Under the pieces are notes generated by a model. That model was not told the origin of the DNA. It did no database searches and was given only the letters and a program-made list of their open reading frames with translations. Position numbers and translations under genes: made by a program. From Chloroflexota bacterium (lineage in GTDB: Bacteria; Chloroflexota; UBA6077; SHYK01), in assembly GCA_035652535.1 (NCBI GenBank), contig DASRDP010000011.1, forward strand, positions 1 to 41,634: a DNA stretch of 41,634 bases, written 5' to 3'. Positions 7,149 to 39,557 of this stretch are shown one piece after another. Each line of letters opens with the position of its first letter. The first letter of the stretch is position 1.

Positions 7149-7949
7149 CTAGAGAGTCGCGAGGGCGCGCTGAAAGTAGCGATCGTCGGCGAAGCGGTGC
7201 GCGTCTACCGGCCCGCGAAGAAGCCCAACGTCGCGCCGCATCTGCATCATCTCCTGCAGCCCATCCCAACCGAAGCGCGGCGTCGCCTGGCCCGGCTTCC
7301 CATCCTCGGCCGCCTGGCCGCGCAGATAGGCGCGCAGGTACCGCAGCAGCAGGTCCTCGCGCTTCTCAGCCCACTCGCGCCGAACAGCGGTACCCCCCGC
7401 GTAGTTGGTGTAGAGGTGGTTGATGGAGTCGAGCACGTGAAATCCCTCGCGCTCCAGGGCGGCCGCCTGGTCGGACCCCACCATTGCTCCGAAGGTGTCG
7501 CCTGCACGCATGGAATCGATGCGCTGCTGGGTCGCCCCCACCTCGAGGAAGGTGAAGTCCCGCCCCTCCTCGGCCAGTCCCGCCTTTTTCAGCAGGATGC
7601 GCAGCGGCGTGACGTAGCCGCTTTCCGATGCGTCGACGGCGATCGGCTTGCCCCGGAGCTCCGCGCACGAGTGGATCTCGGGCCGAACGACGAGGCTCTG
7701 GTTTGGCCTCCCCGGAGTTGCCAGCACGATCAGGAAGTCGGCGCCGTTGTCTTCGTTCCACCAGTAGACGTTGTCCGCGTTCGTGTGGACGACGTCCCAA
7801 ACGCCGTCGCGGAGGCGGCCCATCTGCGCCTTCGAGGACTGCGTCACATCCAGCTCCACGTCGATGTTCTCGGCCGTGTAGATCCCGTCGTTCACGCAGC
7901 GCTCGTGCACGCGCGACCGGCCGAACGTACTGACGCGGAGCGTGTCCAT
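7149..7949 (-). CDS. SsuA/THI5-like solute-binding-fold protein, no signal peptide
   Basis: A 266-residue NMT1/SsuA-type periplasmic-binding-fold protein. It begins directly with the first strand (MDTLRVSTFGRS), then shows the family's ENIDVELDVT, the DVVHTNADNVYWW pocket region, and the lobe-2 entry ELRGKPIAVDASESGYVTPL. I start at ATG 7949; the frame extends to a GTG at 7994 but adds no signal peptide. Without an export signal or a transporter partner, it may be a cytosolic enzyme or sensor of the same fold (as THI5 and 4,5-dihydroxyphthalate decarboxylase are) rather than a transporter component. It lies between murE and a LigB-type dioxygenase on the same strand, so aromatic metabolism is possible. 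Confidence 0.75.
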   Translation of the reverse strand: MDTLRVSTFGRSRVHERCVNDGIYTAENIDVELDVTQSSKAQMGRLRDGVWDVVHTNADNVYWWNEDNGADFLIVLATPGRPNQSLVVRPEIHSCAELRGKPIAVDASESGYVTPLRILLKKAGLAEEGRDFTFLEVGATQQRIDSMRAGDTFGAMVGSDQAAALEREGFHVLDSINHLYTNYAGGTAVRREWAEKREDLLLRYLRAYLRGQAAEDGKPGQATPRFGWDGLQEMMQMRRDVGLLRGPVDAHRFADDRYFQRALATL

Positions 7950-8003
7950 GCGCGCTATATTCGCCCGCTCATCGGTTCGCCCCACGAGCCGCACCGCCGT
8001 ACG

Positions 8004-9017
8004 CTAGAGCCACTGCGCGAACCCCATGGCGTTACCGGACCCTGCCTCCGATCGGTAGCAGGGGACGTAGTCGATCATCTCCATCTCGAGGCCGATGCCG
8101 TTCATCACCGCGGAGGTCGTGATCCAGTTCCGAATCTCCGACGTGCCGGCGTTGAAGCGCTCGGCCGGCAGGTTCGTCAGCTTCTTCACGTCCTTCGCCT
8201 TCATGGAGGCGATGACGTCCTCGTCGAGATCCTCCTCCACGACGAAGTGCGTCAGCCCGCCAGACGCGATCACGGCCACCGTAAGGTCGCTCTCCCACGA
8301 CTCGATGGCGCGACGGAGCGACTCACCGAACTCGTAGCAGCGCAGCAGCGTCGGCTGATTGGGCGGATAAAAGGTGTTGATGAAAATGGGGACATTGGGG
8401 ATGACCTCGTCGTTCATGATCCGCCGATAGATGAAGCCGTAGGCGTGGGGAATGCTGTGGTTTCCGTGCCGTCCCGCCGGGATGCGCCGCGAATGGGCGA
8501 CGTCGAAGCCATCGTTCATGAAGTTATGGATGATGTGGAGCGCGAGCTCTGGCTGCCCCGGGTAGGTGGCCGGCTCGGGCGGGAAATGTCCCCAGTCCGC
8601 CACGGCCAGGCCGGGCGGCCGCTTCGCGGAAACCTCCGGCGAGAGCCCGACATTGTCCATCGTATCGCCCCAGTACACCGCGAAGGCCGGCATGTTGTCG
8701 TCGAGGAAGATCTCCTCCTGGTCGTCGCCGATGATGACCGCGACGTCAGGGGACACGCGCTCGAAGGTCTCGGCGAGCTTCGCGATGGCCTTCTGGCACG
8801 CGGCATGGCGCTTCTGCATCTTCTCCGGAGTGATCTGTTTCTCGAGATGCTCGTCGGCGCGCACTTCGACCAGCTCGGCATAGCTGTACTGCTTGCCCTT
8901 GAACCAGAGGTCGGTTCTTCCGGTCCGGTCCGCCTCTGCGCGCTGCCACCACTGATCAGGCGGCGTGCTCAGCATTGGCCCGTGAGAGGTCGCCATGCCC
9001 ATTATGATCCTGGCCAT
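8004..9017 (-). CDS. Class III extradiol ring-cleavage dioxygenase (LigB family)
   Basis: A predicted non-heme Fe(II) enzyme that opens catechol-type rings. The 337 residues start at ATG 9017 behind GGGGAG. The opening ARIIMGMATSHGPML places the first iron-ligand histidine at residue 12. Further family motifs are VSPDVAVIIGDDQEE, the catalytic-histidine segment GNHSIPHAYGF, IFINTFYPPN and the C-terminal ASGGLTHF. The alpha (LigA-like) subunit is absent, so it is a LigB-only form such as those acting on dihydroxyphenylpropionate or gallate. The substrate cannot be told from sequence. The frame stays open far upstream, but that part is antisense to the divergent gene. Confidence 0.87.
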   Translation of the reverse strand: MARIIMGMATSHGPMLSTPPDQWWQRAEADRTGRTDLWFKGKQYSYAELVEVRADEHLEKQITPEKMQKRHAACQKAIAKLAETFERVSPDVAVIIGDDQEEIFLDDNMPAFAVYWGDTMDNVGLSPEVSAKRPPGLAVADWGHFPPEPATYPGQPELALHIIHNFMNDGFDVAHSRRIPAGRHGNHSIPHAYGFIYRRIMNDEVIPNVPIFINTFYPPNQPTLLRCYEFGESLRRAIESWESDLTVAVIASGGLTHFVVEEDLDEDVIASMKAKDVKKLTNLPAERFNAGTSEIRNWITTSAVMNGIGLEMEMIDYVPCYRSEAGSGNAMGFAQWL

Positions 9018-9121
9018 CGTCGTCTCTCTCCCCTCGGTGGCTGGGCCTGCGATATAGTCCGCATACCACGTCGGCGTAACGCGCCGTGGCGCAAATTCAG
9101 GCCCCGTGTCATCGTGACCAG

Positions 9122-9127
9122 TATACT
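9122..9127 (+). promoter_or_regulatory. Putative -10 element TATACT before the aspartate-dehydrogenase-like gene
   Basis: TATACT lies 35 bases upstream of the ATG at 9163, within the 145-bp divergent spacer. No matching -35 hexamer is seen at 16-18 bp. Confidence 0.35.
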
Positions 9128-9162
9128 GCGGGCGAATTCTGACCGCGATGGAGCGCCGACCT

Positions 9163-9966
9163 ATGGCGCACACAATGCAGTTGGGCTTAATCGGATACGG
9201 CACGTCGGGCCGACAGGTGGCGCGCGGGATAGCGGACGGCAAGGCCGGCGAGGCGCGCATATCGGCCGTGCTCGTGCGTCGAGCGGACGCCGAAGGGCCC
9301 AGTGGGGCGCTGGTTACCGCCGACCGCGACCGATTCCTCGCGGAGCCCTTGGATCTCGTGATCGAGCTGGCTGGCCAGGAGGCCGTGCGCCAACACGGCG
9401 AGGCGATGCTTCGCGCGGGGCGCGACCTCATGATCATCAGCATCGGCGTGCTTTCGGACGACGCGCTGTTCGGTCGGCTCCGCGACGCGGCCATTGCGGG
9501 AGGCGGACGTTTGCTGCTCCCCTCAGGGGCGATCGGCTCCCTCGACGCCATCTCGTCCGCGGCGATCGGCGGGCTGGACGAGGTGACCATTACCACGCGC
9601 AAGCCGCCGGATGCCCTCGCCACCGGCACCGATCGCGACGCCGCGCTCGGGGAGGCTGAATCCCAGCCGGTGCTCCTCTACGAGGGAGCGACGCGCGACG
9701 CCGTTCGTCTGTTTCCCGCGAACGTCAACGTCGCGGCCGCCGTGAGCCTCGCCGGCATCGGCTTCGACCGCACGCAGATCCGGATCTTCGCCGATCCCGC
9801 CGTCACGCGAAACACGCACGAGATCCACGCGAAGGGATGGTTCGGGGAGCTGCGCTTCACCATCATGAACGTTCCGACGGAGAATCCCAAAACAGGGCGG
9901 ATTACTGCGCTCAGCGTCATCAAGGCCATTCGCAATCTGCGCGCGCCCGTCGCGCTGGTTGGCTAA
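9163..9966 (+). CDS. L-aspartate dehydrogenase-like protein (NadX family)
   Basis: A 267-residue dehydrogenase with an N-terminal Rossmann motif GLIGYGTSG (glycines at 11, 13 and 16). Its C-terminal domain is typical of NadX/DUF108 proteins: LLPSGAIGSLDAISSA, TRKPPDAL, LFPANVNVAAAVSLAGIGFD and TRNTHEIHAKGWFGELRF. Family members oxidise aspartate to iminoaspartate, feeding NAD synthesis, or act on related amino acids. No nadA or nadC is near, so an NAD role is not supported by context. The start at 9163 has GGAG nine bases upstream; an in-frame ATG at 9148 is a weaker choice. It is divergent from the LigB-type gene. Confidence 0.85.
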   Translation: MAHTMQLGLIGYGTSGRQVARGIADGKAGEARISAVLVRRADAEGPSGALVTADRDRFLAEPLDLVIELAGQEAVRQHGEAMLRAGRDLMIISIGVLSDDALFGRLRDAAIAGGGRLLLPSGAIGSLDAISSAAIGGLDEVTITTRKPPDALATGTDRDAALGEAESQPVLLYEGATRDAVRLFPANVNVAAAVSLAGIGFDRTQIRIFADPAVTRNTHEIHAKGWFGELRFTIMNVPTENPKTGRITALSVIKAIRNLRAPVALVG

Positions 9967-10113
9967 GGCGATCGGGCGACGACGGGTTTGCAGAGAGGTT
10001 CGCGAGCGCTTTCCCGGTGAGCAAACGGCATCGAAACAGCGGCGGTTTTTCGTTACAACGTAGTGAGAGCACCCGGAGAGGGCGGCTATAACGAAAGCGA
10101 GGCAAGACAAAAG

Positions 10114-10620
10114 ATGTTAAAGCTCGATAAAGCGCGCCGGCTGATCGCCGCAGTGGTCGTGGGCGCCGGTTTGTTGAGTTTCGGCGCCGTGATGGCGCCG
10201 CAAGCAAGCGCGGACTCCTGCGACTCCACGACGTCCATTGTCCCGGCGGACAATTCCTTCACCTGGGCGATCACGCCCATCTGCTTCGACGATTCCGGCA
10301 CCGACGTCGTCGTAACGGTGCCCGATGGTCTCGGAGGCTCCATCACGATCGTGTCCAACTCCAACAACGCGGTTGTGCGAAGCGGCGTGTCCGGCGTGGC
10401 CTACACGACGCCGGGGAATACCGCGTACGTGAACGGCCAGCCGGAGCTTGGACCGTACACCAATATCAGCACCTACACGCCGAGCCAGGCTGCGGCTGCG
10501 CGCGCGGCTGGTAACCCATCAGCAACGGCCAACGCCTACAGTCAGTACGGAGGATTCACTCCGCCGGGTGACACCGCCACGCGCATCCAGTCGTCCGGCA
10601 CGGTCATGAACGGCCACTAG
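10114..10620 (+). CDS. Secreted protein of unknown function
   Basis: A 168-residue protein with a clear signal peptide: KLDKARR, a hydrophobic core (LIAAVVVGAGLLSFGAVMA), and a likely cut after PQASA before DSC. The mature part is rich in Ser, Thr, Asn, Gly and Tyr, with predicted beta strands (TDVVVTVPDGLGGSITIVS) and only two cysteines early in the chain. No known domain is evident. The ATG at 10114 has GAGG 11 bases upstream; the frame to the left is non-coding in character. The next gene begins six bases after the stop, so the two may be transcribed together. A TATAAC at 10087-10092 could be a -10. Confidence 0.65.
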   Translation: MLKLDKARRLIAAVVVGAGLLSFGAVMAPQASADSCDSTTSIVPADNSFTWAITPICFDDSGTDVVVTVPDGLGGSITIVSNSNNAVVRSGVSGVAYTTPGNTAYVNGQPELGPYTNISTYTPSQAAAARAAGNPSATANAYSQYGGFTPPGDTATRIQSSGTVMNGH

Positions 10621-10626
10621 GCAGCA

Positions 10627-11694
10627 TTGGTCCTCCTGCTCACCAATGAGGATATGGAACGGATCGCGGGGGTGGACGCGCCCGCGGTCATCGACGTCGT
10701 CGAGCGCGCCTACTTCGGCCTCGGAAAGGGTGAGGCCGTCAATCCGCCGCGGAGGCGCCTGACCGCGCCACTCCGCCAGGAAGGCGCGACCTACTGGTTC
10801 AACAACATCATGGGCGCGGTGCCGTCGATCAACACCCTGGCGCTCCGCATTGATTCGACCTCCTTCCGTCTCGCCACCGTGGACGGAATGACGCGGAAGG
10901 TGCGGGCGGGCGATTTCGTCGGCCTCGTCCTGCTCTTCGACATGGCCACCGGCGCGCTCGAAGCCATCTTGCACGACCACTTCCTATCGACGCGTCGCGT
11001 GGCCGCGACCGGCGCCATCGCGGCGAAGCGCCTCGCGCGCTCCGATTCGGAGGTGATGGGGCTTTTCGGGAGCGGCCAGCAGGCGACGGCGCAGGTCCAC
11101 GCGATGGCGGCGGTTCGCCCGCTCCGGCTCGTCAAGGTCTACAGTCCGAACCCCGAGCACCGAGTGTCGTTCGCGGCGCGCATGTCCGATGAGACCGGTG
11201 TGGAGGTCCGCGCCGTCGACACGCCGGACGCGGTCGTCGACGGGTCCGACATCGTGGTCACCGCGACGAACTCCCGCTCACCGGTCTTCGACGGTCGCGC
11301 GCTCCGGCCGGGCACGCACGTCGAGACGATCGTGGGGACGGACCAGTCGGCCGCCGGCTCTGAGATCGACCGCGACGCGGTTCGACGCGCCGATGTGATC
11401 GTCACGAACCTGAAGGAGCAGATCCAGGTCGACCGCCAGCCGAAGCTCCTCTGGGCCATCGAGGAGGGGGTGATCGCCTGGGACCAGATCCACGACCTTG
11501 GCGAAGTCGTCGCCGGCATCGCACCCGGGCGGACGGCCGACGACCAGGTCACCCTCCATGACAACAACACGGGAATGGGGATCCAATTCGCCGCGCTGGG
11601 ATCGCTGATCCTTCAGCTCGCGCGCGAGCAGGACCTCGGCACGCCGCTGCCCGACGACCTGTTCGTCACTCGCGGCGGCGAATACGCCCCATAG
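10627..11694 (+). CDS. Ornithine cyclodeaminase / mu-crystallin family protein
   Basis: A 355-residue NAD(P)-dependent enzyme of the OCD/mu-crystallin family, which includes ornithine cyclodeaminase, alanine dehydrogenase, ketimine reductases and opine-type enzymes. The pattern is standard: LLLTNEDMERI at the start, STRRVAATGAIAAKRLAR, the Rossmann motif GLFGSGQQATAQ, and DIVVTATNSRSPVFDG. The metal-free active-site region VKVYSPNPEH is also recognisable. The start appears to be TTG at 10627, because family members begin a few residues before LTNED; an ATG at 10654 would cut this off. Substrate is not determinable. Confidence 0.85.
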   Translation: MVLLLTNEDMERIAGVDAPAVIDVVERAYFGLGKGEAVNPPRRRLTAPLRQEGATYWFNNIMGAVPSINTLALRIDSTSFRLATVDGMTRKVRAGDFVGLVLLFDMATGALEAILHDHFLSTRRVAATGAIAAKRLARSDSEVMGLFGSGQQATAQVHAMAAVRPLRLVKVYSPNPEHRVSFAARMSDETGVEVRAVDTPDAVVDGSDIVVTATNSRSPVFDGRALRPGTHVETIVGTDQSAAGSEIDRDAVRRADVIVTNLKEQIQVDRQPKLLWAIEEGVIAWDQIHDLGEVVAGIAPGRTADDQVTLHDNNTGMGIQFAALGSLILQLAREQDLGTPLPDDLFVTRGGEYAP

Positions 11695-34276: not shown

Positions 34277-34352
34277 CGATCAGCGCGAAGGGGCGCCCGC
34301 CCTCCATGCCCGAGGTCGTCTCGCCAGCGTCGACTTTCGGTACGATTGCCCC

Positions 34353-34748
34353 ATGGCGGAGCGGAGCAAGGATTGGCTGGACCAGGCGAAGCGAGACCTC
34401 GACCACGCGCGCCACGATCTCGACGACGCGTTCTATGAGTGGGCCTGCTTTTCGGCTCAACAGGCAGCCGACAAGGCGGTCAAGGCCGTGTTCCAGCGGC
34501 TGGGGGCGGAGGCGTGGGGCCATTCCATCAGCGATCTTCTGCTGGCGCTCGACGAGCGCGAGCATGTTCCGAGCGATATCGCCATCGCCGCGGCCGAGCT
34601 GGACAAAGCGTACGTCGCGACGCGATATCCGGACGCGCACCCGTCCGGCTCTCCCGGCAGCCGTTACGTCGAAACCGAAGCCGACCGCATGGTGGAGTAT
34701 GCCGACCGAATCCTTCGGTTCTGTACGGATCTTCTGGCCGCCCTATAG
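34353..34748 (+). CDS. HEPN-domain protein
   Basis: A 131-residue HEPN protein: KDWLDQAKRDLDHARHDL, then the helix FYEWACFSAQQAADKAVKA containing the family's W-A-C-F-x-x-Q-Q-A pattern, and a C-terminal helix with RYVETEADRMVEYADRIL. It lies directly before a nucleotidyltransferase gene with which it overlaps, which is the classic HEPN/MNT arrangement. There is no ribosome site before the ATG; a TACGAT at 34341-34346 could be a -10 for a nearly leaderless message. The pair may be a toxin-antitoxin module or a nucleotide-modifying complex. The R-x4-6-H RNase motif is not evident. Confidence 0.87.
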   Translation: MAERSKDWLDQAKRDLDHARHDLDDAFYEWACFSAQQAADKAVKAVFQRLGAEAWGHSISDLLLALDEREHVPSDIAIAAAELDKAYVATRYPDAHPSGSPGSRYVETEADRMVEYADRILRFCTDLLAAL

Positions 34749-35187
34749 CCGAGAGGAGCTGATCGCCAGGCTGCGCCAGCGCGTGCCGGGGCTTGCCGCC
34801 GCGCTCCCGCTTCGCCGAGTGGTCCTCTTCGGCTCATGGGCAAGAGGTCGCGCGACGGTGCGCAGCGACGTCGATCTTCTCGTCGTCTACACCGGCGAGC
34901 CGCGCGACGACGCGTTCACGACGGTACGGCGGTGTATGGACACACGAGGGGTCGAGCCGCACGTCTACACGGCGGACGAAGCCGAGGCTCTGCGCGACAC
35001 CATCGATCGCATGACCGAGGGCGGCGTGGAGCTATTTCCCGAGGGCCGGTCCACCGCCAGTCCCCTCTCCCCCGACGACGGGGGACAGGGCGAGCGTGAG
35101 GGGGTTGGGGGCGAAAAACCACGCAATAGCGGCAATGCCGTCTTTAGTAGGCCACCGCCGGGAGGTGCGCGTCGTACTCGGGCGTGA
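34699..35187 (+). CDS. Minimal nucleotidyltransferase (MNT) with repeat-derived tail
   Basis: A 162-residue nucleotidyltransferase partner of the HEPN gene, which it overlaps by 50 bases. The core motif is LFGSWARGRATVRSDVDLLV (GSxARG...DVDL), with two catalytic aspartates and a downstream Arg/Asp region. The ATG at 34699 lies in a GGAG-TATG context; a GTG at 34787 would remove the conserved N-terminus. Related proteins end near GGVELFPE. Here the frame runs on for about 45 residues through a GC-rich inverted-repeat element and beyond, so the natural stop seems lost. The tail is of low complexity and overlaps the 3' end of the convergent gene by 44 bases. Confidence 0.8.
   Translation: MPTESFGSVRIFWPPYSREELIARLRQRVPGLAAALPLRRVVLFGSWARGRATVRSDVDLLVVYTGEPRDDAFTTVRRCMDTRGVEPHVYTADEAEALRDTIDRMTEGGVELFPEGRSTASPLSPDDGGQGEREGVGGEKPRNSGNAVFSRPPPGGARRTRA
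35061..35112. repeat. REP-like GC-rich palindromic element
   Basis: The element contains CCCCCG-ACGA-CGGGGG (35069-35084), a perfect 6-bp stem with a four-base loop, flanked by CCCCTCTC and by GGGGGTTGGGGG. This CCCCTCTCC / GGGTTGGGG form resembles dispersed intergenic repeats common in GC-rich environmental genomes. It lies where the nucleotidyltransferase gene should end and is translated as its tail. Confidence 0.6.
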
Positions 35188-36421
35188 CCGGCCGCTGGTG
35201 GGTCAGCATGATCTCCCGTCGCTCCCGCGCGGACTGCATCATGGCGAGGCAGACCTCGAGGGTCGCCATGCCCCACCGACCGTCGTGGAAGAGCGGGCGG
35301 TCGTTCACGACCCCATCGTACAACTCCTCCAGCTCGGCGCGGCGCTGGCCCACGCCCATCACGCGATTGGGCGTCAGGTCGATGTCGTGGATGCCCTCGT
35401 CGTCGTACACGTACAGGCCGAACTTCGAGTGGCGGATGTCCCCCCGGTCGCAGCTCACGATGAGGAGGCCCATGTCCTCGGGCACCCACGGGCGCCGCTC
35501 CGGCTCCCGGAAGGTGGCCTCTTCGGCCGCGCCGCCGATCCGCAGATCCTGCTTGTCCTGCGCCTCGTTCCGGGTACCGGTCCGCATCTGGCGGCGCACC
35601 TCGACGCGCTGCTCGGCGGTGTACCGCTGACTGGAGTCGCCCCACGGCACCAGCTCAGCTCCGAGGAAATAGCCGTAGCCGTTGTGGACGATGGTGGAGG
35701 GCGTGCCGTCCTCGAACTCGAGATACGCCGAGTAGTAGCCGGGGATGGGGCGCTCGGGCATCCACTGCCCGGTCATCGCGCGGACACTGCGGAGCATGCC
35801 GCCGCCCAGCACGCGCACCGTATCGATCTGGTGCGGACCCTGGCGGTACGGAATGCCGCCGCCCTGGTTGATGTCCAGCTCGTCCGCGGTGCGTGGTCGG
35901 AGCATCCAGTCCGAGTAGGCGAGGAGGTGGATCGCACGGACTTTGCCCAGCTTACCCGACGTGATGATCCGCCGCATCGCCTGAATCGGCAGCGTGTAGC
36001 TCCGGGTGTGGCCGGCGAGCAGCTTCACCTTGTTCTTCTCGGCCGCCTCGACCATCCGCTCGGCCTCCTCGATGTTGAGGGCCATCGGCTTTTCGACGAC
36101 GACGTGCTTGCCGTGCTCGGCCGCGAGGATCGTGTGCGGGCCGTGGAGGCGATTCGGCGTCGCGATCCAGACCGCCTCGACATCTGGATCCTCGACCAGG
36201 GCCTCGGCGCTCTCATACACGCGCGCGTTGGGGTATCGGGCCTTGAATCGCTGGCGCGTCTCGGGCACGACGTCCGCGGCGGCGAAGAGGTCGATCTCGT
36301 CCATCGCTTCCATCGCCGGAAGCATCTCTGCCGCGCCGACGCCGACGCCAATCAGGCCGAGCTTGAGCGCGCGGACGGGCCGGGCCGATGCTCCGGAACC
36401 CTGCTCCTGAACCTTCGCCAT
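35144..36421 (-). CDS. Gfo/Idh/MocA-family oxidoreductase
   Basis: A 425-residue NAD(P)-dependent dehydrogenase. An N-terminal Rossmann domain (LKLGLIGVGVGAAEMLPAME) ends at the substrate-binding EKP motif (VVVEKPMALNIEEAERM). The C-terminal domain has INQGGGIPYRQGPHQIDTVR, the family's catalytic region. ATG 36421 has GGAGG seven bases upstream. The region around NRLHGPHTILAAEHGKH resembles dihydrodiol dehydrogenases such as those in phthalate breakdown; that is a similarity, not an assignment. It is on the same strand as the DUF35, thiolase and CoA-transferase genes upstream, with gaps of about 50 bases, so it may belong to that catabolic set. Confidence 0.9.
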   Translation of the reverse strand: MAKVQEQGSGASARPVRALKLGLIGVGVGAAEMLPAMEAMDEIDLFAAADVVPETRQRFKARYPNARVYESAEALVEDPDVEAVWIATPNRLHGPHTILAAEHGKHVVVEKPMALNIEEAERMVEAAEKNKVKLLAGHTRSYTLPIQAMRRIITSGKLGKVRAIHLLAYSDWMLRPRTADELDINQGGGIPYRQGPHQIDTVRVLGGGMLRSVRAMTGQWMPERPIPGYYSAYLEFEDGTPSTIVHNGYGYFLGAELVPWGDSSQRYTAEQRVEVRRQMRTGTRNEAQDKQDLRIGGAAEEATFREPERRPWVPEDMGLLIVSCDRGDIRHSKFGLYVYDDEGIHDIDLTPNRVMGVGQRRAELEELYDGVVNDRPLFHDGRWGMATLEVCLAMMQSARERREIMLTHQRPVTPEYDAHLPAVAY

Positions 36422-36473: not shown

Positions 36474-36965
36474 TCAAGGTTCATTTGGACCGCTCGGCTC
36501 CACCGGAACCGCGCGGACCAGCCCCCTGACGACCGCTTCGAGGAGGCCGACGGGCCGGAATTGGGGAAGCGAGATCTCGTCCGTCACGTCCTCGAACACG
36601 ACCTCCAGCGGCATCCCGATGCGAATCGCCGCCGGGTCAGGCTCGACGCCCACCAGGTTCGTCGGCATGCGCGGTCCCTCCTCAAGCTCGACGATGGCGG
36701 CGACGTACGGGGTCGTGAAGCCTGGGGCTGGCGCGCGATGGACGATGCTGAAGGCATGGAGCGTGGCGCGGCCCGACGCCTGGAGCCAGCGTGTGTCGCG
36801 CGAGAAGCAAAGCGGACAGATCGTGCGCGGGTAGAAGTAGGCGTTGCCGCACGCCTCGCAACGCATGATCCACAGCTCGTGCTCGCGCGCCCGCTGCCAG
36901 TAATACTCCGTCTCGGGTTGAGGAATCGGGAGCGGCCGGGACGGACCTTCCGAGCCTTCACTCAT
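36474..36965 (-). CDS. DUF35 OB-fold/zinc-ribbon protein, thiolase partner
   Basis: A 163-residue protein of the DUF35 type. A zinc ribbon has C36, C39, C50 and C53 (CEACG...CPLC), and an OB-fold follows (GRATLHAFSIVHRAPAPGFT, then AAIVELEEGPRM). In the known steroid side-chain system the DUF35 domain of ChsH2 binds the thiolase-like aldolase Ltp2 and is required for its activity. Here the DUF35 gene lies directly after a thiolase-like gene that lacks both cysteines, the same pairing as in that complex. ATG 36965 is 43 bases after the thiolase stop. Confidence 0.92.
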   Translation of the reverse strand: MSEGSEGPSRPLPIPQPETEYYWQRAREHELWIMRCEACGNAYFYPRTICPLCFSRDTRWLQASGRATLHAFSIVHRAPAPGFTTPYVAAIVELEEGPRMPTNLVGVEPDPAAIRIGMPLEVVFEDVTDEISLPQFRPVGLLEAVVRGLVRAVPVEPSGPNEP

Positions 36966-37008: not shown

Positions 37009-38202
37009 TCAGTCCGCCGCCAGCACCACGGTTCCGGTGGACGACAGGTAGCCGCCCGTGCCATTCACGAGCGCGATCCGACAGTCGGAGACCTGGCGCG
37101 GGCCGCACTCACCCCGGAGCTGGCGCACCGCCTCGACGATGAGAAAGATCCCGTACATCCCCGGGTGCGTGTACGAAAGGCCGCCCCCGTTGGTGTTGAG
37201 CGGGAAGGCGCCGCCCGGCGCCGTGCGCTGATCCGCGACGAGATCGGGTCCTTCACCGGGGCCACAAAAGCCGAGGCTCTCCAGCGTCGCGAGCACGGTG
37301 TACGTAAATGAATCGTAGACCATCGTGAGGTCCACATCTTGCGGCGCCACCCCGGCCATCGCGAGGGCACGCGGCCCGCTATCCCGGGCAGGAGTGACGG
37401 TGAGGTCCGGCATCTGGCTGATGGCGTAGTGGTCGTGGTACTCCGCAGCCCCCAACACCCAGACGGGCGGCTTGGCGCAGTCTAGCGCTCGATCGGCGCG
37501 CGTAATCACGGCGGCGGCGCCGGCGTCTGTCACGAGGCAGCAGTCGAGCAAGTGGAAGGGCCATGCGATCCAGCGCGATGCGTGGTAATCCTGGAAGCTC
37601 ATGGGATCGCGCATGAGCGCCCGTGGATTGAGCTGTGCCCACTTTCGGGTCGCGACCGCGATCTCCGCCAGCGCCTGGCGCGTGCGGTCCTCACCATACC
37701 GGTGCATGTAGCGGCTGCAGGCCATGCCATAAGAGACGGGCGGCCCGATGATTCCGTACGGCGCTTGAAACTCGCCGATCGGCGCCCCGACGTTGTCGAG
37801 ACGGATCGTCTGGAGGCCAGGTGGACGTGCGCTGCGGCCGGTTTGGCCGTGCGTGATGAGGGCCACGTCGCAGAAGCCGGCTTGAATGGCAGCCAGGGCG
37901 TGGGCCACCTCGATGACGAACGACGAGCCCCCGACCGAGGTGCTGTCGGTGTACCTCGGCCGGATGCCCATATATTCCGCCGTCGTCAGCGTGCTGAAGC
38001 CTGCCGTGAACAGTCCATCGACGTCCCGAGCATTCAGTCCGGCGTCGGCAAGCGCGTTGAAGGCAGCTTCGGCGTGGTGCTGCAGGGAGGACTTTCCGGG
38101 CACGAGCCCGATCTCGTCCGATTCGGCCACGCCGACGATGGCGACGCGCTGCGCCCGCTCGCTCATCGCGGAGATCGCCCCGCGGAGGTCGGCTCGATCC
38201 AT
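37009..38202 (-). CDS. Thiolase-like protein lacking the catalytic cysteines; candidate retro-aldolase
   Basis: A 397-residue SCP2/Ltp-type thiolase-fold protein. The nucleophilic cysteine is absent: the loop reads TSVGGSSFVIEVAHA around residue 90. The C-terminal general-acid cysteine is also missing (VNGTGGYLSS). The histidine of the GHP-type loop is kept (NGGGLSYTHPGMYG), and tyrosines stand in that loop and in VYDSFTYTV. Proteins of this kind with a DUF35 partner act as aldolases, splitting beta-hydroxyacyl-CoA side chains, rather than as thiolases. ATG 38202 lies ten bases after the CoA-transferase B stop; ATG 38166 is possible. Confidence 0.9.
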   Translation of the reverse strand: MDRADLRGAISAMSERAQRVAIVGVAESDEIGLVPGKSSLQHHAEAAFNALADAGLNARDVDGLFTAGFSTLTTAEYMGIRPRYTDSTSVGGSSFVIEVAHALAAIQAGFCDVALITHGQTGRSARPPGLQTIRLDNVGAPIGEFQAPYGIIGPPVSYGMACSRYMHRYGEDRTRQALAEIAVATRKWAQLNPRALMRDPMSFQDYHASRWIAWPFHLLDCCLVTDAGAAAVITRADRALDCAKPPVWVLGAAEYHDHYAISQMPDLTVTPARDSGPRALAMAGVAPQDVDLTMVYDSFTYTVLATLESLGFCGPGEGPDLVADQRTAPGGAFPLNTNGGGLSYTHPGMYGIFLIVEAVRQLRGECGPRQVSDCRIALVNGTGGYLSSTGTVVLAAD

Positions 38203-38212
38203 GGCGCGGATG

Positions 38213-38875
38213 TCAAAGCGCGATCTCGCACAACGTCGGACTCACCTGTAGGCGCGCCTCAGTGACCGCCTGTACGTCGGCCGCCCTCCAGCCGGGAGCG
38301 ACCTCTTCCAGCACCAGGCCGTCGTCTGCCACGGCGATGACGGCGACGTCGGTGAAGATCTTGTTCACGACGCGGCAGCCCGTCAGAGGGTAGGTGCAGG
38401 ACCGGACGATCTTGGGCTGGCCGTCGCGCGTCGTGTGCTCCATCATGACAAAGAGGCGCTTCGCCCCAGCCGCGATGTCGGCCGCGCCTCCGATGCTGCC
38501 GACGCGTCGATCGACCCGGCGCCAATTGGCCAGGTCGCCTCGCTCCGAGACCTGGAGGCCGCCCAGCACGGCGACGTCCAGGTGGCGGCCGCGGACGATG
38601 GCGAACGACTCAGCCGAGTCCATGAAGGCCGCCCCGGGTATGAGGGTGGTGAACTGGCCGCCCGCGTTGATGAGGTCCGGGATCTCGCTCCCCGGCTCGG
38701 GGAATGGGCCCGTCCCCAGAACGCCATTCTCGGCATGGAAGACGATACGCTTCTCGGAGAGCACGTAATCGGCCACCAAGGTCGGCATGCCGATGCCGAG
38801 GTTGACGTAGGCCTCATCGGGAATCTCCGCCGCCACCCGCATGGCGATGACGTCGCGAGTCAGGCGATCAGGCAA
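38213..38875 (-). CDS. 3-oxoacid CoA-transferase subunit B
   Basis: A 220-residue beta subunit of the acetate/3-oxoacid CoA-transferase family. The active-site glutamate E49 lies in the ENG motif (FHAENGVLGTG), and GLQVSERGDLANW is the conserved CoA-site segment. It overlaps the A-subunit gene by eight bases and is therefore made with it. Such enzymes move CoA between a dicarboxylic or oxo acid and an acyl donor, activating substrates such as 3-oxoadipate. Which acid is used here is not shown by sequence. Confidence 0.93.
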   Translation of the reverse strand: MPDRLTRDVIAMRVAAEIPDEAYVNLGIGMPTLVADYVLSEKRIVFHAENGVLGTGPFPEPGSEIPDLINAGGQFTTLIPGAAFMDSAESFAIVRGRHLDVAVLGGLQVSERGDLANWRRVDRRVGSIGGAADIAAGAKRLFVMMEHTTRDGQPKIVRSCTYPLTGCRVVNKIFTDVAVIAVADDGLVLEEVAPGWRAADVQAVTEARLQVSPTLCEIAL

Positions 38876-39557
38876 CGCGCTCGCGCTCCGCGACCACGAT
38901 CCGATCCACGAAGATGCCCGGGGTCACGACGTGCTCCGGGTCGAGCGTTCCGGGCTCCACGACCGCGTCGACCTCCGCGATGGAGACGTCCGCAGCCATC
39001 GCCATGATGGGATTGAAGTTGCGCCCCGCGTTGCGATACGTGAGGTTGCCGAGCCGGTCGGCTGTGTGGGCGCGAATCAGCGCGAAGTCCGCGCGCAGGG
39101 CGTGCTCCAGAACACAGAGGCGACCGTTGATCTCCCGCACCTCCTTGCCATCCGCGAACGGCGTGCCGACACCCGTGGGCGTGTAGAAAGCCGGAATGCC
39201 CGCGCCCCCGGCGCGAATGCGCTCGGCCAGCGTTCCCTGGGGCACGATCTCCAGACCAATGGCGCCGCGCTCGTAGCCCTGTTCGTAGGGATTTTCGGGC
39301 TGGGGTGAGGCCCCAACCGGAAACGAGAGGATTGCCCGGGCGATCATCGAGGCCGGCACCATGGCCGCCTGATTCGCGGGATCGCGCCGATGCGGCGTGC
39401 CGTTCGCGATGATGGTCAGGTCGCGCACCCCGCGCTGCGCGAGGGCGCGCAGGAGGAGAACGGGCACGCCAACTCCGGCAAACCCACCGACCATGATGGA
39501 CGCGCCGTCGGGAATGTCGCTGACGGCGGCGGCGGGATCAACCAGGACTGGCTTCAC
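38868..39557 (-). CDS. 3-oxoacid CoA-transferase subunit A
   Basis: A 229-residue alpha subunit. The oxyanion-hole and CoA-binding region GASIMVGGFAGVGVPVLLLR is at the N-terminus, and a second conserved stretch is GGAGIPAFYTPTGVGTPFAD. ATG 39557 starts the gene set A, B, thiolase, DUF35 and then the dehydrogenase, all on the minus strand with short gaps. A TATACT box stands about 29 bases upstream of the start, so the CoA-transferase probably heads an operon. Confidence 0.93.
   Translation of the reverse strand: MKPVLVDPAAAVSDIPDGASIMVGGFAGVGVPVLLLRALAQRGVRDLTIIANGTPHRRDPANQAAMVPASMIARAILSFPVGASPQPENPYEQGYERGAIGLEIVPQGTLAERIRAGGAGIPAFYTPTGVGTPFADGKEVREINGRLCVLEHALRADFALIRAHTADRLGNLTYRNAGRNFNPIMAMAADVSIAEVDAVVEPGTLDPEHVVTPGIFVDRIVVAERERVA

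Follow-up and report, generated by a model that had tools for sequence, protein, structure and literature searches.

A candidate retro-aldolase of the thiolase fold, encoded beside a DUF35 protein in a Chloroflexota genome

A thiolase-like protein of 397 aa (THL; 37009..38202, minus strand), assigned to the thiolase superfamily and to NCBIfam PRK06158, is encoded next to a DUF35 protein in a Chloroflexota genome. Judged from its sequence, THL is nearly certainly not a cysteine-type thiolase. By analogy with characterised side-chain aldolases, THL and the DUF35 protein are proposed, with a probability of roughly 0.6, to form a retro-aldolase acting on a beta-hydroxyacyl-CoA, in which THL would be the catalytic subunit, Tyr296 the base and His346 the probable acid. 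Aldolase chemistry was taken as the best reading because THL is nearest, after the orphan structure 4U4E, to the aldolases Sal and Ltp2 in both sequence and fold. A sequence-only reading of the same DNA had proposed retro-aldol cleavage of a beta-hydroxyacyl-CoA by a pair of the Ltp2 type; the cleavage was retained on the strength of this relationship and the strict Ltp2 type was not. THL is a real, well-conserved protein that probably carries the wrong family label.

The window, the whole stretch of 41,634 nucleotides that was analysed, is contig C11 (1-41634), one of 168 contigs in a genome of 4.45 Mb. Five minus-strand genes lie in series, encoding CoA-transferase subunits A and B, THL, the DUF35 protein and a Gfo/Idh/MocA dehydrogenase. 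The class I CoA-transferase genes (A, 38868..39557, minus strand, pcaI/scoA family by Pfam and NCBIfam; B, 38213..38875, minus strand, pcaJ/scoB family by NCBIfam) overlap by 8 bp and are probably co-transcribed with THL; the claim that a CoA-transferase stands beside the pair was borne out by scores above the TIGR02428 and TIGR02429 cut-offs (277 vs 244 and 267 vs 129 bits). Subunit B looks like a working transferase, as it retains E49 of the ENG motif, a glutamate that we take to be the catalytic residue. The true start of THL may be Met13 (38166, minus strand), most of residues 1-16 having pLDDT <50 in the model. The DUF35 protein (163 aa; 36474..36965, minus strand), the proposed partner subunit, has a ChsH2-type zinc ribbon and an OB fold; zf-ChsH2 and OB_ChsH2_C exceeded their cut-offs and no other Pfam domain was found in it. 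Its gene begins 43 bp past the THL stop on the same strand, and the zinc ribbon C-x2-C-x10-C-x2-C (residues 36-53; 36807..36860, minus strand) is intact, both as had been read from the letters. The last gene of the putative operon encodes the Gfo/Idh/MocA protein (GFO; 35144..36421, minus strand), described earlier as dihydrodiol-dehydrogenase-like, and 4,5-dihydroxyphthalate dehydrogenase 7wzd is indeed its nearest PDB match (266 bits).

Active-site residues were compared in an alignment of 107 sequences: the window protein, 102 proteins from the loci and four PDB chains. L006 among the locus proteins duplicates the window THL. Conservation was assessed in 85 proteins, 54-72% identical to the window THL, from the best 80 of the genome loci listed (L016-L095), five of which contribute two proteins each. 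The nucleophile loop reads TSVGGSSF (residues 88-95; 37918..37941, minus strand), without cysteine as first noted, and G92 falls where the cysteine thiolase 7yvy (IEAACASG) has its nucleophilic Cys. No cysteine was restored to this column by alignment (Gly 85/85, Cys 0/85), and YDSF and H346 were likewise found in 85/85 proteins. In YDSF (residues 296-299; 37306..37317, minus strand), Y296 shares a column with Ltp2 Y294 and Sal Y302 and replaces the histidine of the thiolase HD[C/A]F motif, and S298 occupies the column of Ltp2 His296 and Sal Cys304. In LSYTHPGM (residues 342-349; 37156..37179, minus strand), H346 (37167-37165) is the aligned counterpart of Ltp2 Y344, of Sal Q352 and of the thiolase GHP histidine. 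The GHP-type histidine is thus kept, in YTHPGM, as had been stated; of the catalytic tyrosines said to remain, the first is present (Y296 = Y294) and the second is gone (Y344 to H346). Since H346 stands at the Ltp2 Y344 position, it is a difference from Ltp2 and not a common feature. The C-terminal thiolase Cys motif, GTGG (residues 381-384; 37051..37062, minus strand), reads NGTGG in context and contains no cysteine, in agreement with the first reading; this loss was dropped as a diagnostic and counts as weak evidence because the cysteine thiolase 7yvy, with QNIGG there, is also without that Cys.

In a wider set of 125 homologues, picked by similarity to the window and biased to this family, Gly was combined with YD in 115 and Cys with HD in 7, the three exceptions being L129 (Gly/HD), L132 (Gly/QD) and L138 (Pro/HD). 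Loss of the nucleophile therefore accompanies the His-to-Tyr change, which is present in Ltp2 and Sal as well. In the 115 Gly/YD proteins, residue 346 varies between His, Tyr and Gln, and residue 298 between Ser, Ala, Cys, His, Asn and Pro. Throughout the Cys-less branch, Gly in place of Cys and the Tyr of YDx[FY] would be all but invariant and the acid position exchangeable, being Tyr in Ltp2 and IpfD, Gln plus Cys in Sal and His in THL. Ser298 is not invariant within the THL clade, where L012, L013 and L098, outside the best 80 loci, have YDAF with the His kept. If the proposal is true, a simple sequence rule would hold in the superfamily, Cys with HD marking a thiolase and Gly with YD an aldolase.

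PDB sequence matches of THL were 4U4E (478 bits), Sal (194) and Ltp2 (179), with thiolases at ≤113. The AlphaFold2 monomer model of THL (mean pLDDT 78.8, pTM 0.85; low confidence in segment 339-349, which holds His346) matched 4U4E (Z 48.8), 9MYR (46.3) and 6OK1 (45.6, tied with 9MYR) before thiolases (≤43.6). 4U4E, a putative thiolase of Sphaerobacter thermophilus, is the closest solved relative (61% identity); its YDSF and THP are identical to those of THL, its loop reads TAVGGSSF and it falls in the same clade. A full-text search of open-licence PMC papers returned no reported function for 4U4E, and among the matches listed from that literature no member of the PRK06158/4U4E group with a measured activity was found; the orphan structure would gain a testable function if the proposal is true. 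A tree of 60 rows was built by IQ-TREE quick search with SH-aLRT support only and without bootstrap, and contains long-branch rows of uncertain placement, IpfD among them. The seven Cys/HD thiolases and L138 (8 rows) were split from the other 52 rows (SH-aLRT 100), and the window THL, 4U4E and relatives formed a clade of 34 of the 60 rows (SH-aLRT 100), apart from Ltp2, Sal and the thiolases. Sal clustered with L134 and with C23, a paralogue from the window's own genome (SH-aLRT 100), and Ltp2 with a second pair of plasmid pIBU218 (SH-aLRT 99).

Two characterised systems guide the interpretation. The cholesterol side-chain aldolase TcLtp2-ChsH2 (6OK1) resembles the THL pair in fold, Gly, first Tyr and a C4 zinc-ribbon DUF35 protein; it differs in having YDHF and Tyr344 where THL has YDSF and His346. 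The bile acid side-chain aldolase Sal-Shy (CtSal, 9MYR) likewise has Gly at the Cys position, a catalytic Tyr within YDx[FY] and a DUF35 partner. Unlike THL, Sal has YDCY and Gln352, its catalytic Cys304 corresponds to Ser298, and it belongs to a separate clade; the DUF35 domain of Shy, which has a C3H1 zinc site, resides in a protein that also contains MaoC, whereas the partner of THL is a stand-alone protein. According to the available part of PMC12329534, the catalytic tyrosines of Ltp2 are Y294 and Y344, with His296 as oxyanion residue; in Ltp2 and Sal the first Tyr is the catalytic base that deprotonates the beta-hydroxyl, and the enolate is protonated by Tyr344 (Ltp2) or Cys304 (Sal). 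In the same part, a backbone Gly (Gly89 in Sal) is proposed to hold the beta-hydroxyl, and the old Cys position is occupied by a Gly.

By analogy with the crystallised complexes of Ltp2 with ChsH2 and of Sal with Shy, THL and its DUF35 partner would form a heteromeric carbon-carbon lyase that converts a beta-hydroxyacyl-CoA to a carbonyl compound and a shorter acyl-CoA by retro-aldol reaction. Tyr296 would accept the beta-hydroxyl proton, and with Gly92 in place of the nucleophilic Cys no acyl-enzyme would be formed. His346 would probably reprotonate the enolate, as Tyr344 does in Ltp2 and Cys304 in Sal, in an active site predicted to be lined by Ser298 and the GTGG loop. A Tyr-His pair is proposed because THL combines the Tyr and the Gly with His346 at the Ltp2 acid position. 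Against His346 as the acid, this role falls to Tyr in one of the characterised aldolases and to Cys in the other, and the C304H variant of Sal, at the neighbouring position, is dead (PMC12329534, available part). The CoA-transferase could load CoA onto an acid or rescue a 3-oxo acid product. In the favoured order, the transferase would first load CoA and retro-aldol cleavage would follow, with the hydroxyl coming from an unlinked enzyme; alternatively, the aldolase would release a 3-oxo acid that is then activated by the CoA-transferase. The Gfo/Idh/MocA enzyme might act on a non-CoA product or on an upstream diol.

The best 80 loci comprise 62 from Chloroflexota/Thermomicrobiota and 18 from Bacillota, several of them ending at contig edges, and their neighbouring genes were counted by tblastn as lower bounds. 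The best-scoring named relatives of THL are Chloroflexota, mostly labelled Dehalococcoidia or SAR202, and the group occurs in genomes of Chloroflexota, Thermomicrobiota and Bacillota and on proteobacterial plasmids. A DUF35 gene was found on the same strand within 600 bp in at least 73/80 loci, the seven exceptions being L018, L019, L020, L023, L032, L037 and L039. L018, L019, L020 and L023 are four of the eight best-scoring relatives and gave no DUF35 match in the locus stretch; L019 and L020 retain CoA-transferase genes. In 24 of the 73 THL-adjacent DUF35 proteins, all from Chloroflexota loci between L025 and L071 (e.g. L044:11173-11616), the aligned stretch is without the complete C4 zinc pattern, with pair and aldolase residues intact; by this sequence pattern, zinc may be dispensable in several lineages. 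A small-ORF cluster recurs in 20/80 loci (e.g. L065:9627-9953); the small ORF of L065, directly upstream of the thiolase-like gene, encodes a NIPSNAP protein (Pfam).

Steroid side-chain removal operons combine a dehydrogenase, a hydratase and an aldolase. In Bacillota, an acyl-CoA dehydrogenase gene was found on the same strand within 5 kb in at least 17/18 loci, and also within 5 kb two MaoC-like genes in at least 4/18 (MaoC was counted with L079 and other queries) and an L079-like binding protein in at least 6/18. A 3-hydroxyacyl-CoA dehydrogenase and a Cys-thiolase, each tested with one tblastn query, were nearby in only 2/18 loci; L082 and L086 have ordinary beta-oxidation genes nearby as well. 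In the Cytobacillus locus L079 the pair is preceded, by Pfam, by an SDR, a FAS1-type dehydratase region, a MaoC protein and two acyl-CoA-dehydrogenase-type proteins, the second of which is a C-terminal domain only, and is followed by an NMT1-like binding protein, a DctM transporter, an ADP-forming CoA-ligase-type protein, a thioesterase and a citrate-synthase-type protein; no steroid gene was recognised among the 11 neighbours scanned. This gene order matches what would be expected of dehydrogenation, hydration and retro-aldol cleavage. Among six plasmid loci examined (Shinella, Antarctobacter, Achromobacter, Sulfitobacter, Polaromonas and Martelella), record labels gave an acyl-CoA dehydrogenase in 3/6 and MaoC in 5/6 stretches.

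Besides the four best-scoring relatives without a DUF35 neighbour, the YDAF members of the clade and the beta-oxidation genes near L082 and L086, evidence against the retro-aldolase comes from the window operon, which is without an acyl-CoA dehydrogenase and a hydratase, and from the rarity of this linkage in the 62 Chloroflexota/Thermomicrobiota loci: as lower bounds, acyl-CoA dehydrogenase within 5 kb in 1/62 and over whole loci in 3/62, MaoC within 5 kb in 5/62, a Rieske oxygenase match in the stretch in 8/62 and CoA-transferase genes in the stretch in 3/62. Over all 80 loci, CoA-transferase genes were found in three (L016, L019 and L020; in L016 the A subunit is ~5 kb and four ORFs away) and a GFO homologue in none. 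A conserved five-gene operon was rejected on these two counts; the exact operon was therefore seen only in the window.

This scarcity of tested degradative genes near most of the 62 loci fits an alternative in which THL forms C-C bonds or transfers acyl groups in the same Cys-less site, by aldol or Claisen addition, by Friedel-Crafts acylation like PhlABC, or by malonyl-CoA-like decarboxylation. Bond formation in the reverse sense is possible. PhlC, BbsB and archaeal acetoacetyl-CoA thiolase also have DUF35-type subunits and match THL in sequence and fold, and TbSLP, which has the Tyr motif, decarboxylates malonyl-CoA slowly (PMC12329534, available part). Benzoylsuccinyl-CoA thiolase BbsAB (7PXP) is composed, like the THL pair, of DUF35-type and thiolase-fold subunits; the pair falls far under the BbsAB family cut-offs (107 of 750 and 31 of 250 bits). 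Against this alternative, an acyl-enzyme route depends on the Cys that is missing throughout the conservation set, the Bacillota loci and some of those on plasmids have a degradative look, with transporter, CoA ligase, acyl-CoA dehydrogenase and hydratase genes, and Sal, the closest characterised relative, is described in the available part of PMC12329534 as having no malonyl-CoA decarboxylase activity. This alternative was judged rather unlikely.

A dead thiolase fold, serving as a CoA-ester binder or as a scaffold for the DUF35 protein, would explain why both thiolase cysteines are missing. Over the 85 proteins, 111 positions are ≥97% conserved, pocket residues included (G92, Y296, D297, S298 and H346), and conservation of the pocket at 54-72% identity therefore makes a dead fold improbable.

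A true steroid side-chain aldolase of the Ltp2/ChsH2 type shares with THL the fold, the DUF35 pairing and the first catalytic Tyr, and the description of an Ltp2/ChsH2-like pair held for the Cys-less thiolase fold with its DUF35 partner. It did not hold further: THL scored 242 bits against a cut-off of 469 with NCBIfam NF005892 (PRK07855, 'lipid-transfer protein'), a model which we take to represent the Ltp2 family, Ltp2 His296 and Tyr344 are missing, and THL lies in its own clade, so that strict Ltp2 identity was rejected. A search of the whole genome with the same profile gave no gene above the cut-off and hence no sign of a steroid role for the pair, which suits the earlier remark that the route is not obviously steroidal and leaves this alternative very improbable. 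Least credible of all is a thiolase with another nucleophile, as the annotation would have it, in spite of the kept GHP histidine and the NCBIfam name, since the nucleophile column contains no Cys and HD is now YD. THL is a member of PRK06158 (NF004811; 466.6 bits, cut-off 421), named acetyl-CoA acetyltransferase, and this model scored above its cut-off in 16/151 genomes drawn from the phylum and 0/14 control genomes. If the retro-aldolase reading is true, a widespread 'acetyl-CoA acetyltransferase'/thiolase group is misannotated and pathway reconstructions in which its members count as thiolases are wrong.

The nearest non-steroid analogue of the THL pair is IpfDE of ibuprofen degradation, whose genes were located on pIBU218 (the IpfD accession agrees with that in the available part of PMC11347016). 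The proposed route, as given in the accessible parts of PMC6063337 and PMC9195938, proceeds by CoA ligation, dioxygenation to a 1,2-cis-diol and acyl-CoA removal by IpfD and IpfE; propionyl-CoA and isobutylcatechol are the products reported there and in the available part of PMC11347016. IpfDE, like the THL pair, combines a thiolase-fold protein of the Gly/YD type with an OB-fold protein, and it acts on a CoA ester outside steroid metabolism. IpfD differs from THL (34% identity, YDAF, an acid-position Tyr like that of Ltp2), IpfE is without the zinc cysteines of the window DUF35 protein, and a linked ring dioxygenase and CoA ligase-like gene accompany IpfDE, neither of which is among the five window operon genes. 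The second pair on pIBU218 (L123:939-2503; pIBU218 50938-52502) is of the Ltp2 type (YDHF with Tyr) and adjoins an enoyl-CoA hydratase gene and a CaiB transferase gene. By a more tentative extension of the retro-aldolase reading, which we regard as somewhat doubtful, PRK06158 and its clade might be a third class of thiolase-fold retro-aldolases, non-steroidal and relying on a Tyr-His pair, working here with a CoA-transferase to remove side chains from aromatic or alicyclic acids. If true, DUF35-coupled retro-aldol cleavage would reach beyond steroids and ibuprofen.

When the genome was searched for partner enzymes, as had been suggested, three MaoC and four acyl-CoA dehydrogenase middle domain matches were found; contig C112 carries one of each, separated by ~0.5 kb, and the window contig has none of either. 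Three paralogues with the Cys-less thiolase fold are encoded elsewhere in the genome: C54 (YDCF/His; L118:8016-9589), C29 (YDPF/His; L119:3808-5406) and C23 (YDSF/Gln; L120:173-1366), the one that clusters with Sal. Both C54 and C29 have a DUF35 gene as neighbour. Their other neighbours, read by eye, are a CaiB-like ORF and three ORFs with the start of the Pfam-identified L019 Rieske protein for C54, and two CaiB-like ORFs for C29. Within the window, two further regions were noted by eye. At ~34340-35090 (plus strand) a HEPN-domain-like protein is followed by a minimal nucleotidyltransferase, resembling HEPN/MNT toxin-antitoxin pairs. The region 7149-11694, possibly a second catabolic cluster, has an ornithine cyclodeaminase family gene (Pfam) accompanied by an NMT1-like binding protein, an aspartate-dehydrogenase-like ORF and, at the end of ORF 8004-9629, a LigB-type dioxygenase-like stretch.
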